Below, in pieces: positions 1,561-57,051 of a DNA stretch of 64,000 nucleotides (positions within the stretch are counted from its first letter, which is position 1; each line of letters opens with the position of its first letter). Source of the DNA: Tachypleus tridentatus (taxonomy: Eukaryota > Arthropoda > Merostomata > Xiphosura > Limulidae); the NCBI RefSeq assembly GCF_004210375.1, contig NC_134832.1, positions 157,787,592-157,851,591 on the forward strand, given 5' to 3'. The notes under the pieces were generated by a model that saw nothing but the letters and a program-made list of their open reading frames with translations, was not told the origin of the DNA and did not search any database. A program made the position numbers and the translations under genes.

Positions 1561-2326
1561 CAGGACAGAGCGAAGATGGTGAGTGGAATATGTCTTCATA
1601 TAAAACAACTTTAGTGTGATATCAGATGTCGATGTTTTTTTTTTTTTTTTTTTTTTGGGAGGGAGGGTTTAAGAAAAAAACTAAACCACGTACTCACGTG
1701 CTGCAAACGGATCGGTTAAGATGAAAGTTCTTTGTACTTTACAAAACGTTCCCGGATGTCCTTCTAACTGTCAAGGTCAGAGTTATGAAGCGTGCACTTT
1801 AGATGCATGAAATGACTCAGGGATAACACTTTCGTAACACCAGAATGCAGTTCTTTTCGAAATTTATCTTGAACGATTGAGAAAGGCGGAGCTATCTTCA
1901 GGTGGGACAACTTTCTGGACAAAAAAAAACAACTTATCTGCTGGCGAGTTTAATCCGGAATTTTGAATTCTCGTGCGTTGTTTATTCTAGGTCACACAAA
2001 AACTCCCGCCTTCAAATTAAAAATAAACTCCGATATCTATTTTGCGATGTCGTTTAGATATTTCAAGTCCAGAAATTTATTTACTAACGCTTAAAAAAAC
2101 GTTAATTAGGGACGTGCGTTAACGAAAAAGTGAATTTATAAGCACGTTATTGCTTACGTGGAACAACTCACCACTGTGAATCTGATATCCATGGTTGGCG
2201 TCCCGTTGTGGCAGAAAATAAAAAAAAACGTCTTCCGCAACTTGGAATCGCGGGTACTATGACGTAATGTGTTTTTCGTTTTCCAGCGCTTTCGAATTGT
2301 TCAGAATCCATAATATATTTTATTTT
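1561..2326. other. non-coding DNA with poly-T tract
   Basis: Contains a run of about 22 T at 1,635-1,656 followed by G-rich bases, compatible with the A-tail of an old minus-strand retroposon. No exon or RNA gene is recognisable in the rest. Confidence 0.4.
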
Positions 2327-2495
2327 CCCTAATTTAGCCTTGTAAGATTAGAGGAAAGGCAGCTGGTCATCACTACCCACCGCCAACTCTTGGGCTACTC
2401 TTTTATCAACGAATAGTGGGATTGACCGTCACATTATAACGTCCCCACGGCTGAAAGTATATGTATGTTTGGTGTGACCGGGATTTTATAAAACG
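2327..2495 (-). mobile_element. SINE family A, 5'-truncated/degraded copy
   Basis: The conserved body is clear ('catcactacccaccgccaac', 'gtgggattgaccgtcacatt'). The tRNA-like head decays after 'tttggtgtgaccgggatt', so the promoter part is broken. Confidence 0.65.
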
Positions 2496-3117
2496 CTCGA
2501 GTTTTAGGTCTCGTGTGAAAACTGCTACGACTTTTGTATGTAATCCTGTGTGTTAGCTTTTAACCAGAAAGGTACCTGGAATCAATTTTTGTAGTGTAGT
2601 ACTAAGAAATTATTCTCAGTTTAAATGTATAAGACAAGATGTTGTGAGGACTTAGAAAGTCAAAGAATAAGACGGAATACGGAACAGAAAAAACTGTGGA
2701 CTTTCTTGATTGAAGTAGTTTTGTTTCTTAGAAACTTAAATACATATTTTATTAAGGTGTTGTCATTATTTTGTTATAGTTATCGCGTATATTCCTGTTT
2801 GTTTTGTTTTGTGTTTGAAACAGAAATATCTCTAATTATATTTTACTACATATTTTTATTCACTAACTTGACCAAAGCTCTTTTTTTTTTTTTTTATCGT
2901 TAATGACTGCTTCTCTCTTTACTCACATGTATATATTGATAAATTTCTCGGAAACTTAAAGAAGAAAATACAAAACCACAAATAAAGTCGATGATAGTGC
3001 CATCTCACGGTATAAAGAAAAAGAAATAATAGCTTTGTTTTCTCGTTTTCTGAGAGTTCCTCCTGCGGGCAACAGTAACCATACTGATTTACAAAAGTTA
3101 AAACAGGGAATTGTTAT
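2496..3117. other. AT-rich non-coding DNA
   Basis: Nothing recognisable. A 92-codon open frame at 2,625-2,903 is low-complexity, Phe/Tyr/Leu-rich and AT-driven, without splice or domain support. Confidence 0.4.
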
Positions 3118-3238
3118 TGTTGTTTTGAATTAAGCACAAAGCTACACCCTGGGCTATCTGTGCTCTGCCCACCACGGGTATCGAAACCCGGTTTTTAGGG
3201 TTGTAAGTCCGCAGACCTACCGCTAAGCCACTGGGGGC
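3118..3238 (-). mobile_element. tRNA-derived SINE, family C (full)
   Basis: Best family C copy. The tail 'gaattaagcacaaagctaca' leads, then B box 'cgggtatcgaaacccgg', then 'gtccgcagacctaccgctaa' and 'gccactgggggc'. Read on the minus strand it is a tRNA-like head followed by a short unrelated tail. Confidence 0.7.
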
Positions 3239-3655
3239 AAATAGGGAGTTAAATCTTTTACGGAGAATACGGTAGACGGAGTGATGTAACTGGCTTTACT
3301 ATAAAACAAACAAAAACTCAAAGAAAATTTTAACATGGCTTTTTTGCTTAAAAACAAGAAAAGTTTTCCAAGCGATTTTTGTTTTGTTAATCAAATTTCA
3401 GGTAATAAAAATTAAATATTAATTTCCGCAAATGTCATTTTGGTACGTAAAAATGCCAAGAAAAATAAACTTCGATTTCTTGTTAATTTTAGTTATAATG
3501 AACAAATATAACTCAACAAATATTTCATTTTTCTTGATCTCTGTCAACTGTAGAAACTGATGGGAAAAGGAACTCACGTAGCGAACGAAAGAGAAAACAG
3601 CGCCACCAAGTGAGACAAGTGATTTTATCCGTGCAATAAAAGTACATACAACTTT

Positions 3656-3819: not shown

Positions 3820-3942
3820 TAGTGCCTCGCTGGTACAGCGGTAACTCTACAGATTTACAATGTTAAAATTAGTGATTCAATTCCCCTCGGTGGACTCAGC
3901 AGATAGCCCAATGTGGCTTTGCTATGAGAAAAACACACACGC
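3820..3942 (+). mobile_element. tRNA-derived SINE, family B
   Basis: Full-looking copy: 'gctggtacagcggtaac', 'gattcaattcccctcggtgg', 'cagcagatagcccaatgtgg' and a terminal CA run. Same family and orientation as the copy at 699. Confidence 0.75.
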
Positions 3943-20356: not shown

Positions 20357-22137
20357 ATGGCCACCTTGATACAATTGAACTGTCGAGGTTTACGTTCTAA
20401 TCTGGATGATATCAAAACGCTGATTGCTTCCTACCATCCTGTTTGTCTTTCTATACAAGAAACATTTCTCAAAACTGCTGATACTGTCTCCATTCGGCAG
20501 TTTTCTCTGTACAGAAATGACAGGTTGTGTGATGGTCGAGTACATGGAGGGGTGGCACTGTTGGTTGATCAACACGTGCCCACCCTGTCTTTGTCACTCA
20601 ATACACCCTTGGAGGCTGTAGCCATCCGTGTTTCCTTGGGTCATACCATCACTGATTGTTTTCTGTACCTGTCCCCTGGAGAGACATATGATCAATCAGA
20701 TCTTGATGCTCTCGTTGAACAATTGCCATCTCCATTTCTAATCCTAGGGGATTTTAATGGACATCATCCCCTCTGGGGAAGTGCTATTATTGATGGGAGC
20801 GGATGCTATCTGATCACAATCTTTCTCTTTTCAATACTGGTTCTTCCACTTACTTTCATGCACCTAGTCAGTCCTTTACCGCTATTGATCTCTCAGTTTG
20901 CTCCCCTTCATTATTCTTCCATTTTTCGTGGAGGGTTGACAGTAATCCACTAGGCAGTGATCATTTTCCGATCCTTTTGAGAGAGACTGGCCGTGGTTGA
21001 TGCCACCATACCCGCGTGCCCCGGTGGAAGCTGGATCAGGCAGACTGGTCCACTTTCACTGCTCTCGCAGAACTTGATCCTTCCATCGTAACTCAGCCAT
21101 CAACAGACGACTGTGTAGCAGCGGTAACTGACTGTATTACACATGCAGCTGCTCAGTGTGTTCCTAAAACCTCGACACGTTTTCCACGATATTTTCGTCC
21201 ATGGTGGAATCCTGCTTGCCACTTAGCACAGAAGTCTCAAAAGCGGGCCTGGGATACTTTTCGTAGATATCCCACACTTTCAAATCGGGTTGCTTTTCAA
21301 CGGGCCCGTGAACATGCTAGGTGGGTAAGACGTCAAAGCCAGAAGGAATCTTGGATTAAGTTCACAACCAGCATATCTTCTACTACCAGTTTCAAGATCA
21401 TATGAGACAGTATTCGAAAGGTTAATGGGCACTACAATTCTGTCCCCCTCTCGATCTTACTCTCTGATGGTCAGGAGGTGACTGATGTTCGGAACATCGC
21501 TAACACTCTAGGTGAAAGCTTTTGCCGGGTATCTAGCACTTCTGCTTGTTCCTCCACCTTCCTGGCCATCAAGACTCGGGCAGAGCGATCACCTCTTTCC
21601 TTTCGAACTAACTGTTTCTTTGACTATAATCGTCCCTTTACCCTGGTGGAACTAAAAATGGCCCTTCATTGGTCTGCCAGTACGTCTGTTGGACCTGATG
21701 ATATTCATTATGACATGCTGCACCATCTATCTCCTGCTTCTCTTAATGTCCTCCTGATTGTTTTCAACCGGATCTGGCAGGAGAATGTTTTTCTTGATGC
21801 CTGGCGCCAGGCTATTATTTTACCTTTCTCTAAGCCAGGGAAAGATCTCAAGATTCCTTCAAACTACCGTCCAACTGCTTTGACGAGCTGTCTCTGTAAG
21901 ACATTAGAAAGGATGGTTAATGCTCGTTTTGTTTGGTTCCTTGAATCAAACAACCTCCTCTCGCCCACCCAGTGTGGGTTCCGTCGACAGCACTCCACCA
22001 CAGACCACCTAATTCGTCTTGAAACATCTATCAGAGAAGCCTTTCTCAACCGCCAACATCTTGTATCAATATTCTTTGACATAGAGAAGGCTTACGACAC
22101 AACATGGATGTATGGCGTTTTGCGAGACTTCCATACA
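20357..22137 (+). pseudogene. LINE ORF2 (AP endonuclease + reverse transcriptase), broken and truncated
   Basis: Starts MATLIQLNCRGLRSN. Endonuclease motifs: LNCRGLRSN, SIQETFLK (catalytic Glu) and LILGDFNGHHPLWG (Asp/Asn). A frameshift near 20,800 leads into LSDHNLSLFNTGSSTYF and GSDHFPILL (the SDH motif). TGA codons lie at 20,998 and 21,403. The RT part has SVGPDDIHYDML, LPFSKPGKDLKIPSNYRP, QCGFRRQHSTTDHL and FFDIEKAYDTTW (motif A, catalytic Asp). Sequence ends before the YADD motif, so it is not functional. Confidence 0.88.
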
Positions 22138-22436
22138 TAACCCGGAATCAGGACTGGAAAGGCCAACTTCAGGTGATTGACGGTGGATCTTGAACTTACC
22201 TGCTAGTCTTACTGACGAGTTATGATCATTACCATTTTGCTAGAGTAAATATTTTACAACTTTGAAGACTGGATGTCACCATTGGTTTTTACACCATTTT
22301 CTGTTTTAATTGCTGTTTGTTTTTACCTTCATTTACTTTTACAAATTTTACTCCATTTACTTGACTTTATCTTTTTACTGGACATTACCATCAATCACTT
22401 GAGGTTAGCCTTTCCAGTCCTGGTTCCGGGTTATGT
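22135..22436. mobile_element. 302-bp inverted-repeat unit at the LINE break
   Basis: The left arm (22,135-22,183, beginning 'acataacccggaatcaggac') and right arm (22,388-22,436, ending 'gtcctggttccgggttatgt') are about 90% reverse complements over 49 bp, around about 205 bp of T-rich DNA. It could be a small inverted-repeat transposon inserted at the LINE truncation, or a LINE 3' end with a snap-back inverted copy. No clear target duplication is visible. Confidence 0.6.
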
Positions 22437-25744: not shown

Positions 25745-28700
25745 AAATTGAAGACCTGCACTGTTAAAACATTCAGTTACAGTGAAGACCAACACTGCTG
25801 AAACATACCATGAACTTGATGATGTACTATTGAAACAGTCGTTAAAAGTGAACACCAGTTGCGTTAAAGGAGAGTAAAAGTGAAAACCAACACTCTTCAA
25901 ACAGACCGTGAAATTGGAGACAGGCACTACTCAAAGAGTCATTGAAAGTGAAGACCAATACTGCTAAAGCACAGTGAAATTGAACACCAACACTGTTCAA
26001 ATCGTCAGTGAAACCAAGACCAATAGTGCTGCAAATGTCAGTGAAATTGAAGACGTACATACACTATTGAAACATTCATTAAAAGTTAAGACATTGAATG
26101 AATGTGAAGATCAACAATGTTGAAACTGACTGAAAATTAAGACAACACTGTTGAAACAGTGAAATTGAAGATCATTAGTATTGAAACAGACAATGAAACA
26201 GAAAAACAATAATGTTGAGACAGACAGTGAAATTGAAGATCAGCAATTTTGAAACAGGAAATGAAAGTGGAGACTAACAGTGTGAAAACAATGGCTGAAA
26301 CTGAGGACCAGTAGTATTGAAAGAGAAGTTAAAGAGAATACAACAACGTGAAAAGAGATTGATACTAAGAACCATTAGTGTTGAAAGTGAAGAAAAACAC
26401 TGTTAAAACAGTCATTGATACTGCAGACCAATAGTTTTAAAACAATCATTGCAATTGAATATAGAGTGAAACTCAAGACTAATAATGTTGAAACAGACAG
26501 TGAAGTTGAAGAACAACAGTGTTGAAACCGTCAGTGAAAGTGAAGACCAAGAATGTGAAAACAGTCAGTGAAACTGAAGACAAATAGTACCGAAACAGAG
26601 AATGAAATTGAAGACTAACATTTTCGAACAGTCAGTGAAAGTGAAGACAATAGTGTTAAAGAAGACTGTGAAACTGAATAAAAAGTATTGAACATAGAGT
26701 GAAACTGATGACCAATAATGTTGAAACCGATGGTAAAATTGAAAATTAACAGTGTTGAAGCAGACAGTGAAAGTGAAGACCAACAGTGTGAAGAGTCAGT
26801 GAAACTGAAGACCAACAGTGTTGAAACAGAAGTAAAAGTGAAGACCACTACTACTGAAACAGTGATATTGAATACAAACTGTTGAAACAGAAGTAAAAGT
26901 GAAGACCACTACTACTGAAACAGTGATATTGAATACAAACTGTTGAAACAGTCAGTGAATATGCAGACCAATAGTGTTAAAAGAGTGAAGTTGTAGACCA
27001 AATGTGTTGAAACAGTCAGTCAGTGTGAAAACCAAAAATGTCGAAACAGTCAGTGATAGTGAAAACCAATTGTATGAAAATAGACAGAGGAAGACAACAC
27101 TAATAGTATTGAAATGAAAGTGAAAGTGAAGACAAACAGTGTGAAGACAACAGTGGAACTGAAGACCCACAGTCTTGAAACAGTTAGTGAAAGTGAAGAC
27201 CAACAGTGTTTAAACAGTTAGTGAAATTGAATACTAATAGTGTGAAAAAGTTAAAATGAAGGTTATCACTGAGGAAACAGTCATTAGAACTGAAGACATG
27301 TAGTGTTAAATATATGGTGAAAGTGAAGGCCAACTCTGTTTACACAGTCAGTGAAATCGAAGACCAATAGTGTTGTTACAGATAGCGAAATTGAAGTCCT
27401 ACACTGTTGAAACATTCGTCAAAGTGAAGACCAGCACTGCTGAAACAGACCGAGCAATTAATGACGTACTCTATTGAAACAGTTGTTGAAAGTGAAGACC
27501 AGTTGTGTTAAAAGAGAGTAAAAGTGAAGACACTCTATTGAAACAGTCAAATTACAGACCTACACTATTAAAAAAGAATTGAAACTAAATACCAACACTG
27601 CTGAAACTGACAGTGAAATAAATGATCTCTACTGTTGAAACATTCAGTGAAAGTGAAGACCAACACTGTTGAAAGAGACCATGAAATTAACAACTGGCAC
27701 TAATGAAAGTCATTGAAACTGAAGACCACTATTGTTAAATATATAGTGAAAGTGAAGACGAACATTGTTGAAACAAAGTGATATTGAACACCAACACTTT
27801 TCAAACAGTCAGTGTAACCGAAGACCAGTAGTGTTGATACTGACAGTGAAATTGAAGACCTACACTGTTGAAACATTCAGTTAAAGTAAAGACCAACACT
27901 GCTGAAACAGACCGTGAAATTGATGATGTACTCTATTGAAACCGTCATTGAAGGTGAACACCAGTTGTGTTAAAAGAGAGTAAAAGTGAAGACACACACT
28001 ATTGAAACATACAGTGAAACAGAAGAACACTAATGTTGAAAGAGATAGTGAAATTGAACATCAACACTGTTGAAACAGCAAGTGAAAGTGAAGACCAATA
28101 GTGTTAAAACAGTGCAGTTGAAGAATAACAGTGTTGAAACAGTTAGTGAAAGTGAAGACCGATAGTGTTTAAACAGACAGTAATCTTGATGGCCGACAAT
28201 GTTGAAACAGCTAATGAATGTGAAGACCAATAGTGTGAACAATTCGGTGGAAGTGAAGACCAATAGTGTGAAAATTTCAGTGGAAATGAACAGGAATAGT
28301 GTGGAAATGGAATTGAACGTGAAAGCCATCAGTGTGAAAAGAGACAATGAAACTTAACATCAACATGAAATTGAAGATCAAGAATGTTAAAACAGCCAGT
28401 GAAAGTGAAGACCAACAGTGTTTAAACAGTCAATTGAAGTGAAGACCAACACTGCTAAAACAAACCGTGAAATTGATGACGTACTCTATTGAAACAGTCA
28501 TTGAAAGTGAAAACCAGTTGTGTTAAAATGTAGAATAAAAATGGATATAAGTACTGTTCAGACACACAGTCAAATTAGAGACCAACGCTGTTCAAACAGA
28601 GAGTCAGACTGAAAACCAACTCCATTGAAACAGTCATTGAAATTGAAGACCAGTGGTGTTATAAAGTAGAGTAAAAGTGTAGATCAACACTGTTGTAACA

Positions 28701-31700
28701 AACTGAAAACCAAGACAACATTGTTGAAAGAGAGTGAAATTTTAAACCATTAGTGTTGAAACAGGAGAACAGTAATGTTGAAACAGATAATGAAATTGAA
28801 GATCAACAATGTTAAAACAGCCAGTGAAACTGAAGACTAACAGTGTGTAAAGAGTGAGTGAAACTGAGGACCAGTAGTACTGAAAGAGAAGTTCAACAAT
28901 ATGAAAAGAGACAATGATACTCAAGACAGTTTGTGTTGAAACAGTCAGTGAAAATGAAGATCAACACTGTGAAAAGTAAATTAAAGTAAACAACAAAAGT
29001 GATGAAAGAGACTGACATTGATGTCCAACACTGTTGAAACAGTCATTGAAACTGTAACTAATAATTTCAAAACAGACATTGAAATTGAATACCAATAGTG
29101 TTGAACATACAGTGAAACTGAAGAACAATAATGTTGAAACAGACAGTGAATTTGAAGATCAACAGTGTTGAAACAGTCAGTGAAAGTGAAGACCAACAGT
29201 GTGAAAACAGTAAGTGGAAGTGACCAGGAAATGAACGTGAATACTATCAGTGTGGAAACAGACAATGAAACTTAACACCAACAGTGTTGAAAGAGTCGGT
29301 GAAAGTGAATTTCAATATTGTTGAAAGAAACTGTAAAATTGAAGACGAACAATGTGAAAACAGTCAGTGAAACTAAAAACTAATAATGTTGAAACAGACA
29401 ATGAAAGGGAAGACCAACAGTATGAAAACAGTGAAACTGAAGACAGATAATGTTTTAAGAGAAGTGAAAGTGAAGATCAAAAGTGTGAAAACAGTCATTG
29501 GAAGTGAAGATCAACAGTGTTGAAACAGTCAGTGAAATTGAAGATTAATAGTATGAAAACAGATAAAACTAAGGTCAACGCTGAGGAAAAAGTCAATGAA
29601 AGTGAAGACAAACACTATTGAAACACAGTGAAATTGAACACCAACACTGTTGAAATCGTCAGTGAAACCAAAGACCAATAGTGGTGATACAGTAATTGAA
29701 ATTGAAGAAACTACACTGTTCAAACATTCATTGAAAGTGCAGACCAACACTGTTGACACAGTTATTACAAGTGAAAAATAGTAGTGTTAAAATGTAGAGT
29801 AAAAGTAAAGACAAATACTGTTGAAACAGACTGATAATGAAGAATACACAGTTGAAACAGAGAGTGAAATTAAAGATCCGCAGTGTTGAAGCAGATAGTG
29901 AAACAGAAGAACAACAGTGCTGAAACTTACAGTGAAATGGAAGACCAACAGTGTGTAAAGAGTCAGTGGAAGTGAACAGAAATAGTGTGGAAATGGAATT
30001 GAACGTGAAAACCATCAGTGTGAAAGAGACAATGAAACTTAACACCAACAGTTTGAAAACAGACAGTGAAATTGAAGCTCAAAAGTGTTTCAACGGACTA
30101 TGAAATTAAAAACCAAGTGTTGGAACACACAGTGAAAGTGAAGACCACCATGATGAAAAGAGTCAGTGGAATTCAAGACCAACAGTGTGTGGACAGTCAG
30201 TGAAACTAAAAACCAACAGTGTTGAAACAGAAGTGGAAGTAAAGACCAACAGTGTACAAAGAGAAGAAAAATTGAAGACCACTAGATTGAAACATACAGT
30301 TAAATGCCAACAGTGTTGAAACAGCTAGTGAAACTGCAGTCCGGTAGTGAAGTTGAACACCAATACTGTTAATGATAGTGAAGACAACAGTGTGAAAACA
30401 GTAAAACTGAAGAAAAAACAGAAGTTTTTTAAAACAGAAGTGAAAGTGCAGACCAACAGTTTGGAAACAGACAGTGAAACTGAATACCAGCAGTGTTGAA
30501 ACAGACGGTAAAACTGAAAATTAACTTTGTTGGAGCAGACAGTGGAAGGGAAGGCCAACAGTGTGAAAACAGTCAGTTGAATTCAAGACCAATAGTGTTA
30601 AAACGGAAGCTAAAGTGAAGACGAAAATCGTGAAAACAGTCAAACCCAACACCAAGTGTTAAACAGATATTGAAATTGAAGACCAAAAGTGTTGAGACAG
30701 TCAGTGAAACTGAAGACGAACAGTGTTGATACAGATGTGAATGTGAAGACCGACAGTGTACAAACAGATAGTAAAATTGAAGACCAACAGAATTTATACA
30801 ATCACTGAAAGTGAAAACCAGTAGTCTTAAAATGTAGAGTGAAAGTGAATATCAAGACTGTTGACATAAATTGAAAATTGAGACTACATTGTTGAAACAG
30901 AATGAAATTGAAGACCATTAGTGTTGAAACAGACAGAGGAAGAGAAGAACAATAATGTTGAAACAGTCAGTGAAAGTGAAGATCAACACTGTGTAAACAG
31001 TCAGTGGAAGTTAAGACCAGTGATGTTAAAATGTAGAGTAAAAGTGAAGACAAATGCTGATGAGACAGCCAATCAAATTAGAGACCAACGCCGTTCAAAC
31101 AGAGAGTGAATTTGAAAACCAATACTATTGAAACAGTCATTGAAAGTGAAAACCAGTAGTGTTAAAATCTTGAGTGAAAGTGAAGTTCAACACTGTTGAA
31201 ACCGACGGGAAAATTAAGACTTCACTGTTGAAACAGAGTGAAATTGAAGACCATAAGTGTTGAAACAGACAATGAAATTGAAGATCAACAATGTTGAAAT
31301 AGTCAGTGAAAGTGAAGACCAACAGTGTAAAAATAAACTGATACCAAAGACCGCTAGTGTTGAAACAGTCAGTGAAAGTGAAGATCAACAGTGTGAAAAC
31401 AGTAAATTAAAGTAAAAACCAAAAGTGATAAAAGGGACAGTCAAATTGACGACCAATACTGTTAAAAAAGTCATAGAAACTGCACACCAATAGTTTTTAA
31501 ACAGCCTTTGAAATCGAATACCAGTAGTGTTGAACACAGAGTGCAAATGAAGACCAACAGTGTTCAAACAGCCAGTGAAAGTGGAGACCAACAGTATGAA
31601 AACAACAGTGAAGCTGAAGACAAATACTACTAAAAGAGAGAGTGAAATTGAAGACCGTGTTGGAACAGTCAGTGAAAGTGAAGACAAAGAGTGTGAAAAC

Positions 31701-32362
31701 AGTCAGTAAAACTGAAGAAAAATAGTGTTGAAACTGAAATAAAAGTGAAAACCAAGATAATGAAAACAGGCAGTGAAATTGAAAACCACTAGTGTTGAAA
31801 GAGACGGTGAAATTGAAAACCAAGAGTTGAAGCACACAGTGAAAGTGAAGACCAACAGTGTTCAAACAGAAACTAAAGTGAAGACCATATGTGTGAAAAC
31901 AGACAGTGAAACTGAACACCAACAGTGTTGGAATAAAAGTGAAAGTGAAGACCAACGGTGTAGAAACAGAGAGTAAAAATGAATACCAGTACTAATGAAA
32001 CAGACAGTGAAATTAAATACCAACAGTTTTGAAGCAGCCAGTGAAACTGTAGACCAACAGTGTGAAAACAGATGGTGGAACTAAACACCAATAGAATTGA
32101 AATGGAAATCAAAGTGAATACCAAAATTGTTGAAACAGACCGTAAAAGTGAAGGCGTATAGTGTGAAAACAGTCAATGAAATTGAAGACCAACGCCGTTC
32201 AAACAGACAGTGAAACTCAACATCAATAATATTGAAACAGTCATTAAAAGTGAAAACCAGTAGTGTTCAAATGTTGAGTGAAAGTGAAGTTAACACTGTT
32301 GAAACTGACTGAAAATTGAGACTACACTTATGAAACAGACAACGAATTTGAAGATCAACAAT
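25745..32362. repeat. 6.6-kb degenerate 34-bp satellite
   Basis: Roughly 190 copies of a 34-bp unit of type 'tgttgaaacagtcagtgaaa' plus 'gtgaagaccaacag', with heavy substitution and frequent small indels. Distinctive variants recur at longer intervals: 'gtactctattgaaac' followed by 'ccagttgtgttaaaa' near 25,820, 27,465, 27,925 and 28,475. A 60-bp block at about 26,825-26,945 is doubled. This shows higher-order repeats. The minus strand has many open frames rich in Phe/Thr/Ser/Leu because the purine-rich unit has few stops in reverse; they are not genes. Confidence 0.92.
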
Positions 32363-46685: not shown

Positions 46686-46905
46686 CTCCAATGACAGCCC
46701 GGCATGGCCAAGCGTTTTAAGCCGTGCGACTCGTAATCTGAGGGGCGCGGGTTCGCATCCCGGTTGCGCCAAAGATGCTCGCCCTACCAGCCGTGGGGGC
46801 GTTATAATATGACGGTCAATCCCACTATTAGTTGGTACAAGAGTTGGCGGTGGGTGGTGATGACTAGCTGCCTTCCCTCTAGTTTTACACTGCAAAACTA
46901 GGGAC
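46686..46905 (+). mobile_element. tRNA-derived SINE, family A, with intact-looking head
   Basis: Starts 'cccggcatggccaagcg', anticodon-arm-like 'gcgactcgtaatctgag', B box 'cgggttcgcatcccgg', then the body to 'aactagggacgac'. The usual 3' end is replaced by unrelated sequence. Confidence 0.75.
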
Positions 46906-47048
46906 GACTCAGGTTTCTCCTTTTGGTTGGGGGTTGTGCAGTAGGCTAACAATCTGCTCACATTAAAAACCAGCCTGTTAATGAATCCGCAAGCGATTGC
47001 GGCCCTATGTTCCTTCGGGGAATGGAGAGGCATAATAATAATAATAAC
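46906..47048 (+). repeat. LINE-3'-end-like segment with (ATA)n tail
   Basis: 'cggccctatgttccttcggg' and 'gaatggagaggc' followed by 'ataataataataata'. A GC-rich stretch ending in a trinucleotide tail is typical of some insect-type non-LTR 3' ends. It is fused directly to a SINE that has lost its own 3' end. Family not identified. Confidence 0.35.
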
Positions 47049-47552
47049 TATTTTCTAAGAGAAAAATATTTTTTACGGTAATTAATGCAGATGGAAACTG
47101 TTCTGATTGTGATAACACAAATACTATTTTTTATCTAAGTATGGTACCGTTTATTTAAAAATCAACAGACTTTTTATGTGCATTTCTTAAAAGTAAATTT
47201 ATAAATTACATCAATAAAAATATAATTAAACATTTAGATTTAGTCATAGTGAAAGTCGAGTTCTTGTTACAAGAACAGTACTTTAAAATTCTGTTCTTTG
47301 AAAAACAAATGTTTGTGGTACGTATCGTAGTTATTTTTATAATTGTGTGAATTTAGAATACCAAAGTGGGAATTGTTTATAGATTTTTGTTTGTGGTGCC
47401 AATATATAGGTAGTGACACAATGTATTTATTATTTCGGACACATTTTTACAGATATGCACTCTATGTCTTTAAAATAATTGTAAAATTAGAAAATATCAC
47501 CAAATTATTTCTTGATATTGGATTTACCAGAAATTTATATCTTCAACATTAT

Positions 47553-47785
47553 ACTGCTGGCCAAAATCTTAAGGCCAATGAATATAAAAACAAAATATGC
47601 ATTTTGTGTCGTAAGACTCAACCACTTATTTGAGTAGAGCTTCGAAACATGTAAATAAGAAAAGGGTAAATAAAATTTAAAAAACTTTTTTAGCATTTAA
47701 TAGAGAAAATGTAAACACCATGAAATTAGCCTAAATACTAGCTGGTCAAAAGTTTAAGACCATACGAAAAAGAAGTCCTAAACAA
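47553..47785 (+). mobile_element. Tc1-like element, left end only
   Basis: 'ctgctggccaaaatcttaag' and, about 180 bp on, 'ctggtcaaaagtttaagacc', with matching sequence between. It is clearly the same family as 7,836-8,045. After about 47,785 the two diverge and no transposase is present, so it is a truncated or nonautonomous copy. The sequence up to about 48,110 may still belong to it. Confidence 0.75.
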
Positions 47786-48117
47786 GGTAGGAATAGCCTA
47801 AAAAGGGGTAACAATAGTGAGTTGCATGGTCGTCATTGCGAATAACTTCAAACATTTGCTTTTAACACCTAGTGGTTGAATTAATTAAATACAGAAGTAG
47901 TCACAAAGTTATTTTAGTGATTAAAACAGGACTATTTAATTCTATAAACAAGGAAAAACTGCTGTCTGCAGTAACATGTATAGGAGCGTCATAAACCACA
48001 AGAAGACCTTCTTCCCAAATTTAGCTAATCTATACTAAATAGAAAGGCCGAATTTACACCCTGAACTGCCCTCTAGGCAGACTGTCACTTTTTTTCCGCT
48101 GTGTCAAGTCAAAATTA

Positions 48118-48225
48118 CAAATTCCAACTTCGTGTGCGACCATCGAAACGGTTTTAAAATATGTAAAAGCCCCTTAACAGATCCAGTACGAAGGAAAACT
48201 TTGGGAAAGTGTCCGACTGCTTGCG
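48118..48225 (-). other. rDNA 3' external spacer remnant
   Basis: About 108 bp just beyond the 28S 3' end that matches the same flank in the two other copies ('gaaacggttttaggatatgt' type, near 23,870 and 53,860). Homology stops at about 48,118, marking one edge of the rDNA block. Confidence 0.6.
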
Positions 48226-48636
48226 GACAAATCTCCCAGTCAGAGGCTGAGTCTCAATAGATCGCAGTATGGTGGTTTCTCTACTGAGTACAACATCCCG
48301 ACTGATACCTAGGTCGTCTGCGGACGATTTGGTGCCCTCGACATTTCACCGTGTGGTTCCGTATCGAAAAGCAATGGGTACCATTTGCCTTTTTAAACGT
48401 CGGATGCTCTCTACGACGAAGCTGATTCCCCGGAAGGAGACTCTAATGTAGGGGGAAAAAACGGTATCATTGCAGTGACTAGACGGGATTCTTACTTAGA
48501 GGCGTTCAGTCATAATCTCACGGATGGTTGTTTCGCACCACTGGTCGCTCGACCAAGCATATGTATCAAGTGTCCGAACCTGCTGTTCCTCTCGTACTGA
48601 TCAGGATTACTAGCGCAACGACAAAGTCATCAGTAA

Positions 48637-48685
<49 letters not shown>

Positions 48686-49060
48686 ATTAGTGGGTGAACA
48701 ATCCAACGCTTGGCGAATTCTGCTTCGCAATGATAGGAAGAGCCGACATCGAAGAATCAAAAAGCGACGTCGCTATGAACGCTTTGCCGCCACGAGCCAG
48801 TTATCCCTGTGGTATCTTTTCTGACACCTCTTGCTAAAAACTCATAAGGTGTAAAGGATCGATAGGTCCTGCTTTCGCGGTGCGTATTCGTCCTGAAAAT
48901 CATGATCAAGCAAGCATTTGCCCTTTTGCTGTACGCGAGGTTTCTGCCCTGGCTAAGCTCGCCTTAGGACACCTGCGTTACCTTTTGACAGATGTACCAC
49001 CCCAGTCAAACTCCCCGCCTGACACTGTCCTCGGAGCAGACAACACCCATATCGTGGAAC
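48226..49060 (-). rRNA. 28S rRNA 3' part
   Basis: The reverse complement carries universal LSU landmarks. The sarcin-ricin loop is seen on plus as 'gttcctctcgtactgatcag' (48,585-48,605). Peptidyl-transferase-region strings are 'aactaacctgtctcacgacg' and 'gccagttatccctgtgg', and there is 'cttaggacacctgcgttacc'. The 3' terminal ~250 nt are more diverged. Several substitutions fall at positions that are nearly invariant in animals, so this looks like a pseudogene or divergent paralogue. Confidence 0.92.
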
Positions 49061-49880
49061 CTATACCATCAGACGAAGTGAGGGAAGCACTTCCAAACAT
49101 AAAGAGACGGGTCCCTCGATCCCGATAACATCACTCTTCCATTCCCACTCTACACCCTTACGTTTGGTATCGACGCCTCCTTGGCAAGTCAGTTCAACAT
49201 ATGGTTATTCACGGGTCGCATCCCAGAATGCATGAAGATCAATAATCCCAGACAGCGTGATTTCATTCCTCCAGTGGCAGTTTGATTAGTTGCAGCACAA
49301 ACACCTTGAATCTGAGATTGGTTGTCGGAATAAGTAATAGACATTACCTCTATTCCTGGTGTTAAGCAACCATCTCCCTCGTTTCTGGGGAATCGCTCGT
49401 AAGCTACCATACCCGGGTGGTGCCAAGTAGCTTGATATTGGTCGTTGTCGTGTCACCCCACGTACGCCAACCATAGCTTTTATCTATCGTTTTATCTATT
49501 TACCTTTCATTCTCAAAAATGACCAGATCTGATGTAGGGTGGGTCAAATCCCTACAAAAGGCTAATAATCTGATGTAGGGTGGGTCAAATCCCTACAAAA
49601 TGCTAATACAGGGTAAGGCTGCAAACATCTACGGGGTACCCATACAGCTGACGAGGTTTGTAAGGCCTCATCAGGGTTTGAAATGTATTCCTTCCTTGGT
49701 CTGGGGTTAATTACCCCTGCCTTTGGACATATGATGGTCGGCGAGCTCATCATACAAGTTTTTAGTGTTCTCCTTGACGTGTGGAGGTTTAGTTACAGGT
49801 TTCCCAGCATTCAGCTGCACCAGACGGAGGTACATCCAAGGACAATGCATAGGCAGTGTTCTATGACTAAGTACTTATGC
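49061..49880 (-). rRNA. highly divergent/rearranged rDNA middle section
   Basis: Between two clear 28S blocks lies about 0.8 kb, several hundred bases longer than expected there. On the minus strand 49,480-49,190 has faint similarity to the 18S 3' domain ('attccgacaaccaatctcag', 'ctgtctgggattattgatct'). About 49,880-49,660 has faint similarity to the 28S core that follows the usual R2 site. These are eye alignments only. A 41-bp tandem duplication lies at 49,527-49,608. Confidence 0.35.
49527..49608. repeat. 41-bp tandem duplication inside rDNA
   Basis: Two copies of a unit containing 'gatgtagggtgggtcaaatc' and 'cctacaaaa'. Each contains the short palindrome gtaggg/ccctac. Confidence 0.85.
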
Positions 49881-50210
49881 AACACCTCAGTAATAGTTAC
49901 TCCGGCCGGTTACCCGCCCGTAATCGAATTTCTTCACTTTGACATTGAGAGCATCGTCCGACGGCCATTGCAATGCTTTGTTTTAATTAGACAATCGGAT
50001 TCCCTAGTCTTGCCAGTTCTGAGACGGCAGTTAGTTGCTGGGCGAAACGGTCCCGCCAGGGAAGATGTGTTTTGGCGACTTCCCTTACCTACATTGTTCT
50101 ATCGAGTAGTGATTGTTCACCTTGGAGACCTGCTGGACATATGGGAACAGTCCAGCACGAATATCACACTCTTTCCCTCGGATTTTCAAGAACTGATAGG
50201 ATAAGCCAAA
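49880..50210 (-). rRNA. 28S rRNA internal block
   Basis: Plus-strand landmarks: 'gaatttcttcactttgacat', 'gctttgttttaattagacaa', 'cttcccttacctacattgtt', 'gttcaccttggagacctgct' and 'cggattttcaagaactgat'. These belong to the middle of 28S. Variable stretches between them are shortened. The 28S 5' portion does not follow: within about 100 bp the sequence becomes 18S. Confidence 0.85.
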
Positions 50211-50294
50211 GGTCTATCTCCACTTCACCCTCTGAGAAGATCGACCGACATGTGTGATCAGTCGTCTATTTAATAGGCAAGAGTCTCAATCAAG

Positions 50295-51549
50295 TAAAAT
50301 CTCTTAATCTGTCAATCCTTCCAATGTCTGGGCCGGGTGAGTTTCCCCGTGTTGCGTCAAATTAAGCTGCAGGCTCCACTCCTGGTGATGCCCTTCTGTC
50401 AACTTCTTTAAGTAACAGCTTTGCAAAAATACTTCCCCCGGATCCCAAACACTTTGGTTTCCTGGAAGCTGCCCGGCGAGTCATTTGAGGAACTCCGGCA
50501 GATCGCTGGATGGCATCGTTTCTGGTTAGAACTAGGGCAGTATCGAATCGCCTTTGAATCTCTATCTTTCTTTCTTTATTAATAAAAACATTCTTTGCAA
50601 ATGCTTTCGCAGTAGTTCGTCTTGCGACAGTCCATGAATTTCACCTCTAGCGTCACAATACGAATGCTCCCGTCTGACCCTCTTAATCATTACCTCGTGT
50701 TCCGAAAACCAACAAAATAGAACCGAGGTCCTATTCCATTATTTCATGCACCATTATTCAGGCGTTTCGCCTGCTTTGAGCACTCTAATTTTTCAAAGTA
50801 AACTTGCCAGCCACCCAAGACACTCAATCAAGGGCACCGAGGGAAAACCGGCAGGATGTTTAGGCCAGGAAGTAACCGCCAAAGCGGACCCCCTGTCTAG
50901 AACTGAGATCCAACTACGAGCTTTTTAACCGCAACAACTTTAATATACGCTATTGGAGCTGGAATTACCGCGGCTGCTGGCACCAGACTTGCCCTCCAAT
51001 AGATCCTCGTTAAAGGATTTAGAGTGTACTCATTCCAATTACGGGGCCTCGATAGAGTCCCGTATCGTTATTTTTCGTCACTACCGCCCCGTTCTGGGAG
51101 TGGGTAATTTGCGCGCCTGCTGCCTTCCTTGGATGTGGTAGGCGTTTCTCAGGCTCCCACTCCGGAATCGAACCCTGATTCCCTGTTACCCGTTACGACC
51201 ATGGTAGGCGCATATCCTACCATCGACAGTTGATAAAACAGACACTTAAAAGATGCGTCGCCAGTGCTAGACCGTGGAATCATCCAAAAGTTATCCAAAG
51301 TCACCATCATTTGCGGACCAAAGTCCGATTGGTCTTGGTCTAATAAATGCGCTCATCCCCTGAGGTCGGAGCTTTGTTGCATGTATTACCTCTAGACTTA
51401 CCACAGTTATCTAAGTAGGAAAGTACGATCTAAGGACCAACGGCTGGATAATGAATCATCGCGGTTTCACCTTATTCTGGCACGTATTTAAACATACATG
51501 GCTTAATCTTTGAGAAAAGCATATGACTACTGGCCGGATCAACCAGGTA
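50295..51549 (-). rRNA. 18S rRNA 5' two-thirds
   Basis: The 5' end is exact at 51,549 (reverse complement TACCTGGTTGATCC). Landmarks on plus: 'ggaattaccgcggctgctgg' with 'caccagacttgccctccaat' (50,965-51,000), 'gagatccaactacgagcttt', 'caaattaagctgcaggctcc' and 'gaagctgcccggcgagtcat'. It stops near 50,295 at 'aatctgtcaatcc', so the last ~600 nt are missing in place. Substitutions occur in conserved helices (for example 'catatgctttt' for the usual 'catatgcttgt'), suggesting a pseudogene or a second rDNA type. Confidence 0.92.
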
Positions 51550-53904
51550 TCTTTTCTCGTTAGATGCACTCCACCCGCTCCCAAGGCGAGTAGAAACACC
51601 ACTCTCAAAGCAGCTGACTGCATGGCTAGAAACACGCCTGCCATTCACTGTCTACCTTTTGCCACCATTCTCGAGACAGACGTCTAACACACTCTACAGT
51701 ACAAGTCCTCCAAAACTGCAGTTCCGATAATACGAAACCACCTACTATGTATCAGGAAGAACTGACCTTCGGAGGACAGCTCAACCCACATTAAACTACA
51801 ATTAAAACGGATGCATATTCCGATGTCTCGGCATTGTTACCGAAACTCGTCGCATCAGGAGAGGAAACAGAACGTCTTTCGTAACAAAAGACAAACGTTG
51901 ATTGCTCGGATTAACTCTTAGGCGTGTGGTCGAACGCCCCGACAGCTTTCTCCTCGCTCGAACAAAGAGAGAACCGGAAATAGTCACTGGTATATTTTAC
52001 GACATTAAACTCTTCCACTAAGGCACGCCAAAAACCATCTTCCCAAGTGGTATCGAATCCAACTAGACTGGTAGAAGGACAAACATTATTTGAAAACGCC
52101 GCACAGTGTTCTTAAAACCATCGCTTCTCGCAACGTTTTTTACCCCATATATCGTTTTCAATGCATCATTGTAGTTGTTCATGAAATCTCTCCTGGCCAC
52201 TTTCATTTTATGTTCGGCCATTTCCTTACACTTTCAGCAGTCGTTTTCGCTAGTACTCGCCACCAGTGTGAAAACGGACCGTAAACGGCCCACAGGTCCC
52301 ACGGGTAAATAGGTGAGAGGAGTCTGAACACAGTGTCCATCCAGTCTCAGACAGACTATGACCCCATATATAGAAGGAAACTAAATTTAATGCCATCATA
52401 ACCCAATAGTACGGCACTTTTATGTGCGGTAAAAGGCGAGTGTCCAAGCGAGAAAGTTCCGCGTCGCAAGCCTCGGCTGCATCAAATTAGTGCTCAGTTT
52501 TGAGTGAAAAGGTGGTGAAATTACACGTTGAAAAAAAAAGCGTTTGTGCCTATCAAAAAGATTTGGACGTCTCTCCCTCCCTTCGAAACTTCCCAAACTC
52601 TTTCCACATCGATGCCCGCTTCGGCATCAAACTCTTTGGGAGAAAATCTTTTACAGTCGTACTCCCTATAAATTCCGTCTCAGACAAACTATGCCCCCTA
52701 TATATAGAAGGAAACTAAATTTAATGTCATCATGACCCAATAGTACGGCCTTTCTATGTGCGATAAAAGGCGAGAGCCCAAGGGGGCCAGTTCCGCGTCG
52801 CAACAATAAGTTGCGTAAAACTGGTGCTGAGTTTTGAGAGAAAATGTCGTGAAAACTCTCGTTTGAAAAGAATGTTTGTGACTATCAAAGAGATTTTGAC
52901 GACTATCGCAAGTTTCGCTGGCATTCTCCGTATCGACATCCATAACGCCGTCGAAAGACGCGTCGCGTGCTCGACCGCGCATATGTCCGAAGGGCAGGAG
53001 GCCACTGCGGGTAGTCGGCGGCAGCAGGTGATCGAAATTCCGACACTTTTCCCAATGGCTACGGCTAGCTCCCGCACAGACTTCCAGCACACCGTCGCAT
53101 GCTACTACGAGTCCACACACGCACGAAGCAGACCGAAGGAATGGAGGATACTGAAGGTAGGCGGTGGGCGCGGGTGATCGAATTTCCAGCTTGCTGGGTT
53201 TTAGTCGTCGAATCTGTTCGAGGGTATTCTTTAAAATTACTGTGAAAACCATCACGAGAGAAATTTATTTGTCTTTCACTCTACCATTCACATTGACTTG
53301 GAGAAATCTTGCCATCAAACATAAAATTTCTGTTTATCTAATTCACATAAAATCCTGGCACCAAACTAATATGGATACAGCATGCAAACAATATCCTGAT
53401 CAGGATCTGGGAAAGAGTAAATCATGCAACAAGTCGGTATTAAATCTTAACTGTAAGTCTGTTGCATAATACACTAAATTATTTATTTAACAAGAATTAA
53501 CATAATGATTTAATGTGTGATCTCGATGAACAATGTTGTACGCACCTCTCTCCTATAAATATAAATGGATGAAATATAAATCAACCATGAACTAGACGCT
53601 TAAAAGTAGTAGTATTTCTTTGTGTTTTTCCGAAAAATGGATGTGGAAGTGAAATACATGTATGTGCGTACAAATAAACGGCTCCCGTGACGCTTACAAA
53701 TGACAACAAATGTTCCACACATTGTCTGTTGACTCTGCTGTGTTTGGAGTTGAGCAACACGGCGGCTGTGGACCATCGGAGATGCGCCAGGGAAGCCCGA
53801 CAACGGGTTTGGACAGCGAATAGAAAAAGCAATAAAGTCCAACTCTTTGTGCAACTATTGAAACGGTTTTAGGATATGTAAGAGACCCCCAGCGGATCGA
53901 GTAC
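51550..53904 (-). other. rDNA intergenic spacer with external transcribed spacer
   Basis: Lies exactly between the 18S 5' end at 51,549 and the 28S 3' tip at about 53,905, both on the minus strand, so it is a complete spacer of about 2.35 kb between two tandem rDNA units. It contains a 333-bp direct duplication (52,344 and 52,677) carrying a TATATA motif. The part from 53,115 rightward recurs in duplication copy A. Confidence 0.75.
52344..52930 (-). repeat. 333-bp spacer duplication with promoter-like motif
   Basis: Two copies begin 'gtctcagacagactatgacc' (52,344) and 'gtctcagacaaactatgccc' (52,677). Each holds 'ccccatatatagaaggaaac' or its variant and 'taaatttaatg'. On the transcribed (minus) strand this gives TATATAxGGGG. 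Duplicated Pol I promoter blocks are common in arthropod spacers, so one may be the gene promoter and the other a spacer promoter. That role is inferred. Confidence 0.6.
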
Positions 53905-53995
53905 GAAGAAAAAACTCTCAATAGATAGCAGCATGGTGGCTACTCTACTAAGTACAACACCCCGACGGATACCTAGGTCGTGTACGGACGATTTT
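53905..53995 (-). rRNA. 28S rRNA 3' terminal fragment (copy B)
   Basis: Minus-strand 28S tip with 'ctctcaatagatagcagcat' and 'gatacctaggtcgtgtacgg'. Same breakpoint into AT-rich DNA as copy A ('gatttt|gtatttta'). Confidence 0.7.
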
Positions 53996-55164
53996 GTATT
54001 TTAGTATGATTTTTACTTCGTTTCAATGACTATACTACACAAATCACGGGTAAAGGGAAACAGTATTTAATCATTTGAAATCTTACAATTTTTCATTATC
54101 TTATCATCACTGATTGACCATTCAGAAAAGTTTGGGAAAATGTATAACAATGTAAAATTTATTGTATCCTAGAATAATTGTCAAAATAAGTGAAGATAAA
54201 TTACGTCTGATGAGTAAACACAGTCTGCTTTAGCGGAAAGTTTGCTGTTAGATTTTATATGGTTTTCTTTAAACTTCGAATTACCAAGCTTCTTTTGTAT
54301 ATTATTCACAACAGACGAGACCTATATATTTCAACATATTAAATATTTCCTGTTTTTGTCTGTTACATCAGAAATGTAGGGTAAAACGACTCATTGTCTA
54401 GTGTCAAATACTTGGAAAATTGAAGTAATAATGAGTGTATTTAATTTCAACACATACATATATATATATTACTTTTTGTGACTTGTCTGTTATTAAGGTC
54501 CCTATAATCAGCGAAGTGATGGATTCAGAAGTACGTTGGTGTATATATTACTTTAAGAAGCCAATACCGACTTCACCGGTACATCTATGGATTGTAAGAA
54601 GAAAACACCGGTATTCAGAATCGCTTAAAATATTAATGAAATAAAAATTCATATTCTTTTCACGAAACATGTAGAGATAATGACAGTAAGTATCAAGTTA
54701 TAGAAATGGTTTACCTTCCTGGAGAATAGTACTTTGAACGACGTTTGGTTCCATTTCTGTGTATTTTCATCAGGTTGAGATATATTGTTATTTGCCGTTG
54801 ACATCCATAAATATTAGCTTAATGTGGCTTCTAAGGATGCAATGGCAGCATCAGGTTATCGATTTAACGAAGAAATAATATAATATGATTAAAGTAAAGT
54901 ATTACTTAAGGAAGACAATATAAAAACAGACAAATTTTAGACATAAGTCTACTGATAACCAAATGACTAGTTAGAACCCATTATCGTCACATTGAGATGT
55001 TGTACTGAGGCTCAAGAATTAGGGTAGAATGTGATCGACTGAATGGAAATTATCGAATTGTTCTGTTCAGGAATAAATGTGGCAAGATAAATTTTATTTC
55101 GTCCTACAAAATATTTTGCATGGTAATTTTCTATTAAAGGAAAAATTCACGATAAACACATAAT

Positions 55165-55405
55165 TTTGTTTGAATTTCGCGAAAAGCTACTAAGGGGTAT
55201 CAGGGTTTTACCATTCCTGATTTAGCAGTGAAAGACTAGAGAAGGTAGCTAGTCATCACCATCCACCTTCAACTCTTGGGCTTCTCTTTTACCGACGGAT
55301 AGTCGGATTGACCATCACATTATAACTCCCTCACGGCGAATAGGCGAACATGTGTGGTGGGACAAAGATTCAAACCAGCGAACCGAGCGCCCTAACCACT
55401 TGGCT
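55165..55405 (-). mobile_element. SINE family A inside duplication copy B
   Basis: Counterpart of 25,103-25,345. Keeps a slightly better head ('gaaccgagcgccctaacc'). Confidence 0.7.
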
Positions 55406-56032
55406 GTACCAGACTGAGTGTTTTGGTGTAGCAGTTTATGCGTAAGTGTCCACCAGGAGCAAAAATTTAGTAAATCACCCTTGCAGAATATAGTTTCAAA
55501 CATTTATAAACTAAACTCTTGTCCAATACCAACGCTTAGGACATCCGGAAACTTCTAAGAAGTATGAACAGACAGAATGATCAACATCACCAAACAGTCA
55601 CCCCTGTAAAGAAGTAATTCACTTATAGGGTTTCAGCGTTGTTCCTGTAATGAGGTAAAGTCAACATTAGCTTCTGAGAGGTTCATGAAATATCGTCCTG
55701 CCAACTAATGTAAGCAGATACCTTAAAGCAGATATCAGAAAGTCGCCTAATTACAAGAAACTTGAACTATATGTTTGATTATAATTATTTGTCGAAATAT
55801 TTAAGAGCAACTTAAATGTTTTTTAATCCAAGTTATTTACAAATTAATTTAAAAAAGCACAGATATTGATGAAAACGTAGACAAATTATTTGTTATATAT
55901 TGCGGTGCGTCTGAAGGTATTCAGTAACTACAATGGCAATACTGTAGGATTTATTGGTCTATTACATTATTCTGACTCCTTAAGAGTTGTGGAAGCATGT
56001 TTAACAGAAAACAGTAACTTCACGTGATTTTC

Positions 56033-56308
56033 TTTGTTTGTTTTTGAATTTTGCGCAAAGCTACACCAGGGCTATTTGCGTCAGTCGTTCTTAATTCAGC
56101 AATGTAACATTAGAGAGAAGGCAGCTAGTTATCACCACCAACCAACTCTAGGGCTATTCTTTAACCAAGGAATACTAGGATTTACCGTCACGTTATAACA
56201 CTTCAATGGCTGAAAGGGCGAGCATGTTTGGTGTGACGGGGATTCGAACCCGCAACCGTCAGATTACGAGATGAGTGCCTTAACCACTAGGCCATGCCGT
56301 GCCTAGTT
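56033..56308 (-). mobile_element. tRNA-derived SINE, family A, full length
   Basis: Complete copy from 'tgaattttgcgcaaagctac' to 'aggccatgccgtgcc'. The head has B box 'gggattcgaacccgcaac' and 'cagattacgag'. Confidence 0.8.
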
Positions 56309-56387: not shown

Positions 56388-56530
56388 CTCACGGCCAGGT
56401 GGGTTAAGGTGTCAGACTCGTAATCCGAGGTGATGACTAGCTTTCTTCCCTCCAGTGTTACACTGCTAAATTAGGGACAACTACTGTGGATAGCCCTCGA
56501 GTAGCATTGCGCAATATTAAAATAAAACAA
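56388..56530 (+). mobile_element. SINE family A, internally deleted, inverted to its neighbour
   Basis: Head 'cggccaggtgggttaaggtg' is joined directly to 'gtgatgactagctttcttcc', missing the B box and part of the body, then a normal 3' end. It forms an inverted pair with 56,033-56,308. Confidence 0.75.
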
Positions 56531-57051
56531 ACTAATTCTCACTCTAGAAGCATGGAGCAGAGGGTTAAATCTATACCTGCTCAGACGAGACAGTTACATA
56601 ATTCTCTTCAGTTATAAATAAATCTTATCACATCAATTAATGAAAACAAATCCTCACTACTTCATCAGGTCACTATTGTTCCCAGAGACTATGTCGCATA
56701 GTTATCCAGTTAAAATCACAATTTAAAAAAAAAAAATCAAATTAGTAAGCTTGATAAATCTTTAGGTTTTCTGGTTGTAGTGATTAATTTTTAAAGTACA
56801 ACTGGAATATGAGCTATAAACCTAAATTTAGGGGGTTTGATAAATCTAAATAAATCAAAATGACAGAATTTCACACACACCATTAGATTTTACAGACACA
56901 GATTAGTAGAGTTACATTACAAGTTTAAGTATTTAGTTCATAATTAATGAAAACAATTAAAAATGATTGATTCTTGAATAGTGATTTCTCATCCCATTCT
57001 ACCTTTTCACTGGAACTATGTTAACAGAATACAAGTGATTTATAATTTTAC
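56531..57051. other. AT-rich non-coding DNA
   Basis: Nothing recognisable. Confidence 0.4.

Follow-up and report, generated by a model that had tools for sequence, protein, structure and literature searches.

A probable R2-bearing rDNA orphon decaying outside the main rDNA of Tachypleus tridentatus

A 64,000-nucleotide stretch of the Tachypleus tridentatus genome (contig NC_134832.1; hereafter the window) contains pieces of rRNA genes in a scrambled order. A sequence-only reading of the window placed these pieces at 48118..51549 and left three options for their origin: a decayed orphan unit, a second diverged rDNA class, or a rearranged assembly. Which of these accounts for the block is the question addressed here. 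The results indicate that the block is very probably a single R2-bearing rDNA unit outside the main rDNA (an rDNA orphon) that decayed after escaping concerted evolution. The scrambled look appears to be explained by deletions and the remains of R2, and the block looks like ordinary genome debris.

The block lies on the minus strand at 48,119-53,997 and comprises rRNA genes, spacer, a 5' ETS and a second, short 28S 3' end. The original coordinates fit the rRNA genes correctly but leave out the ETS, the spacer and the 28S end copy lying upstream, up to 53,997. All rRNA matches at gathering score across the 64-kb window fall inside the block, which is an isolated unit. In the labels used here, the window block is on C8 (L001), the C13 copies are L009 and L010, L011 is a main copy and L026 is the second C10 copy. 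In minus-strand order, the block reads 28S 3' end copy, unmatched 610 nt, spacer and 5' ETS, 18S, 28S, a non-rRNA stretch (49,887-49,044), 28S 3' part and a final 110 nt, as follows.

53834..53997, minus strand: second 28S 3' end copy and start of the following spacer (164 nt), lacking the segment that corresponds to 48199-48251
53224..53833, no strand assigned: stretch inside the block, spacer by position only (610 nt, no match to other loci)
51550..53223, minus strand: rDNA spacer and 5' ETS, with patchy homology to the C13, C10 and C19 copies (BLAST to L013, L009 and L011)
50220..51549, minus strand: 18S pseudogene with its 3' end missing (Rfam and alignment to a main copy)
49888..50202, minus strand: 28S internal block with internal deletions (Rfam LSU; alignment to the C13 and C10 copies)
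49270..49887 (approximate limits), minus strand: putative R2 5' junction and 5' leader in sense orientation (collinear with L009 5613-6441)
49044..49269 (approximate limits), plus strand: putative fragment of the R2 reverse transcriptase, internally deleted and antisense to the rRNA (match to the C13 R2 protein)
48229..49043, minus strand: 28S 3' part, model about 2583 to 3399 (Rfam LSU)
48119..48228, minus strand: post-28S sequence common to the upstream copy; the repeat stops at 48119, the limit of detected rDNA homology

Rfam searches and alignments confirmed the reported minus-strand order of 18S, internal 28S, an unclear stretch and the 28S 3' part. SSU_rRNA_eukarya matches 50439-51546 (minus strand, model 4-1116 of 1831, 806 bits), with a weaker SSU piece at 50248-50370 below gathering score, and LSU_rRNA_eukarya matches 48229-50103 (minus strand, model 1889-3399 of 3401, 612 bits). 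Relative to the 1808-base main copy, the window 18S consists of positions 1-1263 and 1333-1400, with a 69-column internal deletion and a 1-base deletion. A break that the Rfam search placed at model position 1116 in main 18S copies was considered as a rearrangement and rejected: the neighbouring matches are collinear, and L017 and L015 resume at model 1118, two bases later. Similarity to 18S stops at 50220 and similarity to 28S begins at 50202, with 17 bases between them. The 28S internal block, which enters the Rfam LSU model at position 1889 (window 50103) and aligns well to about model 2272, is 84% identical to C13 over 139 nt and 90% identical to C10 over 50 nt. The Rfam consensus and the C13 and C10 copies are the sole references for 28S decay here; the main copies read are incomplete in the assembly, and the 28S of L011 reaches only model 664. 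The remainder of 18S and the 5' half of 28S were not found in the block, and 5.8S gave no Rfam match at gathering score in the window; the same search finds 5.8S in 3 of the 20 loci searched (L011, L013 and L031), the window being among the 20. The absence of 5.8S, the 18S 3' part and the 28S 5' half, recognised before any model search, is borne out by the SSU, LSU and 5.8S models. With these parts missing, a working product is implausible, and the block presumably makes no functional rRNA.

Both ends of the block lie in the 28S 3' region, so that it looks like slightly more than one unit. The upstream copy at 53834-53997 is formed of direct repeats of 48119-48198 (79% identical) and 48252-48333 (88%). 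Among the 34 loci compared, 53,224-53,833 has no match to any other locus at E 1e-3, and the outer flanks (47,400-48,118 and 53,998-54,797) likewise match no other locus. A short interspersed repeat flanks the block in both orientations (window 46697-46909, 55164-55385, 56026-56302 and 56429-56538). Elsewhere, the window contains a diverged satellite of roughly 34-bp unit that spans ~6 kb with strong AT and GC skew (25873-32266), and a further non-LTR retrotransposon with an endonuclease frame and a reverse-transcriptase frame (20357-22140, plus strand).

The long stretch between the 28S parts had been described as unclear, and its identity was missed. By its sequence, it is a remnant of an R2 retrotransposon, composed of a sense 5' leader and a reversed reverse-transcriptase piece. 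The fragment is assigned to R2 because it matches the R2 copy on C13. Window 49270-49887 is collinear with L009 5613-6441, the C13 28S end and leader (66% identical with gaps), and the L009 leader region runs into the R2 reading frame at L009 6429. The window leader also has a 41-bp tandem duplication at 49527-49608. For the reversed piece, a plus-strand frame in the window agrees with the C13 R2 protein at 32 of 41 residues, and 49,005-49,245 is 78% identical in DNA to L009 7554-7793 of the C13 element, in the opposite direction. A second antisense piece, at about 49,245-49,284, matches L009 7928-7964, which implies that the antisense R2 piece has lost internal sequence; at its edge, it shares a few bases with the leader match. 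Searched by itself, the window R2 fragment gave no match in PDB or Pfam up to E 0.1. Pfam likewise returned no family, up to E 0.01, for the frame at 52698-53255 or for an antisense frame at 49683-50204. In the window, good 28S alignment runs to near model 2272, and in C13 to 2328. The 28S R2 site lies in this region, and R2 may have inserted there. Repeated 28S pieces blur the junction, and the C10 28S/R2 junction was lost in a deletion.

The identity of the window remnant is established through the C13 copy, in which a leader of about 550 nt separates the 28S block from a 415-residue frame. This frame matches three R2 proteins in the PDB (9dou, 9nl3 and 9nl2; E 2.6e-33 to 3.7e-31), and a 554-residue frame matches the same three at E 3.5e-108 to 1.3e-106 and RVT_1 at 1e-31; R2-type protein sequence is found in the C13 copy. 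A third frame of 64 residues has no Pfam match. The three lie in different frames within L009 6429-9455, an R2 that looks almost complete but disrupted. A ribozyme at the R2 5' end was sought with Rfam at permissive settings in L009 5700-6500, and only LSU came up. The C13 R2 element is also present in the C10 copy, with 91% identity in DNA across 1872 columns, and a deletion has joined it there to a shortened 28S. Each of the three diverged loci (the C8 window, C13 and C10) has R2 sequence after its 28S part, with longer copies in C13 and C10. Compared to the nearest solved relatives, R2Tg (9dou) and 9nl2/9nl3, the C13 copy is alike in the N-terminal region and the reverse transcriptase, and the position inside the 28S gene is alike in C13 and the window. 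Unlike these relatives, the window R2 appears to retain only the leader and the antisense piece, with no coding capacity. The C13 copies L009 and L010 form an inverted pair about 25 kb apart (G000:C13:140109624-140112941, plus strand, and 140081486-140084800, minus strand), and agree at 3893 of 3895 aligned sites across the compared stretch; the pair is either a young palindrome or an assembly artefact.

A whole-genome search, in which 40 of 475 first-look candidates were scored, returned at least 69 matches. Among the matches listed, the 18S on C19, C3, C14, C15 and C71 is 94-96% identical to the window (91-97% for short pieces at 1263-1330), that on C10 is 93% identical (short piece 90%) and the two on C13 are 88% identical. 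The block could instead be an assembly error joining rDNA pieces. rDNA is a common site of misassembly, and 22 of the 34 loci compared contain N. Most of the main copies examined run into N, many of them ending in long N runs, and rDNA similarity in three main copies without N (L017, L019 and L031) ends after 18S or shortly after 5.8S. The window, in contrast, contains no N, and its divergence from the main copies (5.8% in 18S and 15% in the ETS) is not expected from misjoined main units. Misassembly is not needed to explain the block, and is very unlikely to have produced it. The three main copies that end without N have 18S without substitutions and no R2 match, and may be truncated units or assembly joins. 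L011 (7147-10000) and L012 contain long inverted arrays of a roughly 337-bp spacer-like repeat, which lie after a 500-N run that trails the 28S start of a main unit.

The pattern of sequence decay separates an orphan unit from a second, diverged rDNA class still in use, for instance in particular tissues. Twelve 18S copies were aligned and seven were chosen as the main consensus, with further main copies among the 34 loci left out. The seven have no substitutions over the span of the window 18S and 0-4 gap columns each. Against this consensus, the window has 77 substitutions in 1330 sites, the two C13 copies have 38 in 1324 and 38 in 1320, and C10 has 23 in 1400; the second C10 copy, which is cut by N, has 18 in 1039. 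Of the 77 changes in the window, 43 are transitions and 39 are C-to-T or G-to-A, 19 of the latter at CpG. The sequence-only reading had noted substitutions at nearly invariant sites, which is right for 18S and is expected from unconstrained decay. Over Rfam positions 4-632, the window changes hit 11 of the 278 strongly conserved sites, 19 of the 346 weakly conserved ones and 1 of the 8 insert positions. Strongly and weakly conserved sites did not differ detectably in the window (Fisher p 0.45), C13 (0.32) or C10 (1.0), in a test that spans 632 sites and whose small counts are compatible with weak constraint. In the 444 nt before 18S, the window differs from main copy L011 at 67 of 440 sites, C13 at 26 of 442 and C10 at 23 of 440, whereas the four main copies compared are identical. 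The corrected ratio of ETS to 18S distance is 2.8 for the window, 2.1 for C13 and 3.3 for C10. Ratios near 2 are the expectation if the orphan 18S is neutral, the main 18S is frozen and the ETS is free on both branches.

The changes in the three diverged loci are also largely private. Deletions in 18S are at different places, with 69 columns lost in the window and 46 and 31 columns lost in C13. Where 18S changes coincide, the window and C13 have one that is the same and three that are different, the window and C10 have two that are the same, and C13 and C10 have two that are different. Both scrambled units, C8 and C13, are missing part of 18S and have it joined to 28S. Their common ancestry was considered on this ground and rejected, given the different places of the deletions and the same change at only 1 of 4 sites changed in both. 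The window, C13 and C10 copies have decayed separately. If rates are equal, the window block would be the oldest of the three by 18S divergence.

A second working class would account for the further diverged copies on C13 and C10 and for the partly kept spacer and ETS. Yet no 5.8S, 18S end or 28S 5' half turned up, leaving no complete set of constrained rRNAs in the block; few derived 18S changes are common to the three loci, conserved 18S sites are not detectably spared, and all three loci have R2 sequence after the 28S part. This option, raised when the block was described, does not hold up and is highly improbable. The option of a decayed orphan unit is supported: with 77 of 1330 18S sites changed relative to none among the main copies, and conserved sites not detectably avoided on small counts, the block has escaped concerted evolution under relaxed constraint. 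The decay pattern fits neutral decay of separate orphans.

We infer the following order of events and route of dispersal for the R2-bearing orphon. One rDNA unit would have left the main rDNA and now stands alone at another place. Either before or after departure, an R2 non-LTR retrotransposon would have entered the 28S gene, and R2 alone would disable the gene. Away from the main copies, substitutions and deletions would have piled up because concerted evolution no longer corrected the block. One or more deletions may have fused the 18S core to mid-28S, with loss of the end of 18S, the ITS-5.8S region and the 5' half of 28S. R2 would have been reduced to its leader and a turned-round reverse-transcriptase piece, and about 300 28S model positions beyond the R2 region would have been lost; the antisense piece and this loss imply at least one inversion and deletion. 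Dispersal as either a linear fragment or a circle, just over one unit long, could have left the repeated 28S end.

Alternatively, the block could be a reverse-transcribed copy of pre-rRNA inserted by LINE machinery, for which the join of 18S to 28S might be a template jump. The spacer sequence in the block and the upstream repeat of the 28S 3' end are hard to reconcile with a copy of this kind, and no target-site duplication was seen at the block edges, where the best local score (9.0) was equalled in 46 of 300 shuffles. Such an origin is extremely unlikely. A more specific possibility within the orphon reading is that R2-bearing units are a preferential source of orphan rDNA, with the R2 endonuclease cutting 28S and the broken, R2-carrying unit being re-inserted elsewhere. 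R2 is present in 3 of the 3 diverged loci readable past mid-28S (C8, C13 and C10), a count that may be chance. R2-driven dispersal is an unlikely proposition; under it, the reversed R2 piece of the window would mark where such a break was repaired.

The orphon has counterparts in other systems. Degraded rDNA units of nearly full length are dispersed in the human genome (Robicheau et al. 2017, summarised in PMC6562748). As that summary describes them, the human units resemble the window block in being degraded, in containing both coding region and spacer, and in lying off the arrays. The summary names no R2 in its account of these units, whereas the window has R2 after 28S and lacks 5.8S and half of 28S. 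Several Drosophila species have R2 copies that are not inserted in 28S and are often incomplete and diverged (PMC2718515). The window likewise has an incomplete, diverged R2 away from the rDNA locus but, unlike the Drosophila copies as portrayed there, retains 28S together with a large share of the rDNA unit. A model paper (PMC3542110) considers how crossovers eliminate R2-inserted units. The window block adds one more case to a known kind.

Finally, the results remove a likely false lead, in that nothing in the block speaks for a second working rDNA class in T. tridentatus. They also warn that orphan copies could appear as false variants when 18S primers are used or reads are mapped. The genome holds a small set of R2-bearing rDNA orphans of different divergence, which is usable for studying escape from concerted evolution and could address whether R2 aids the dispersal of rDNA units.
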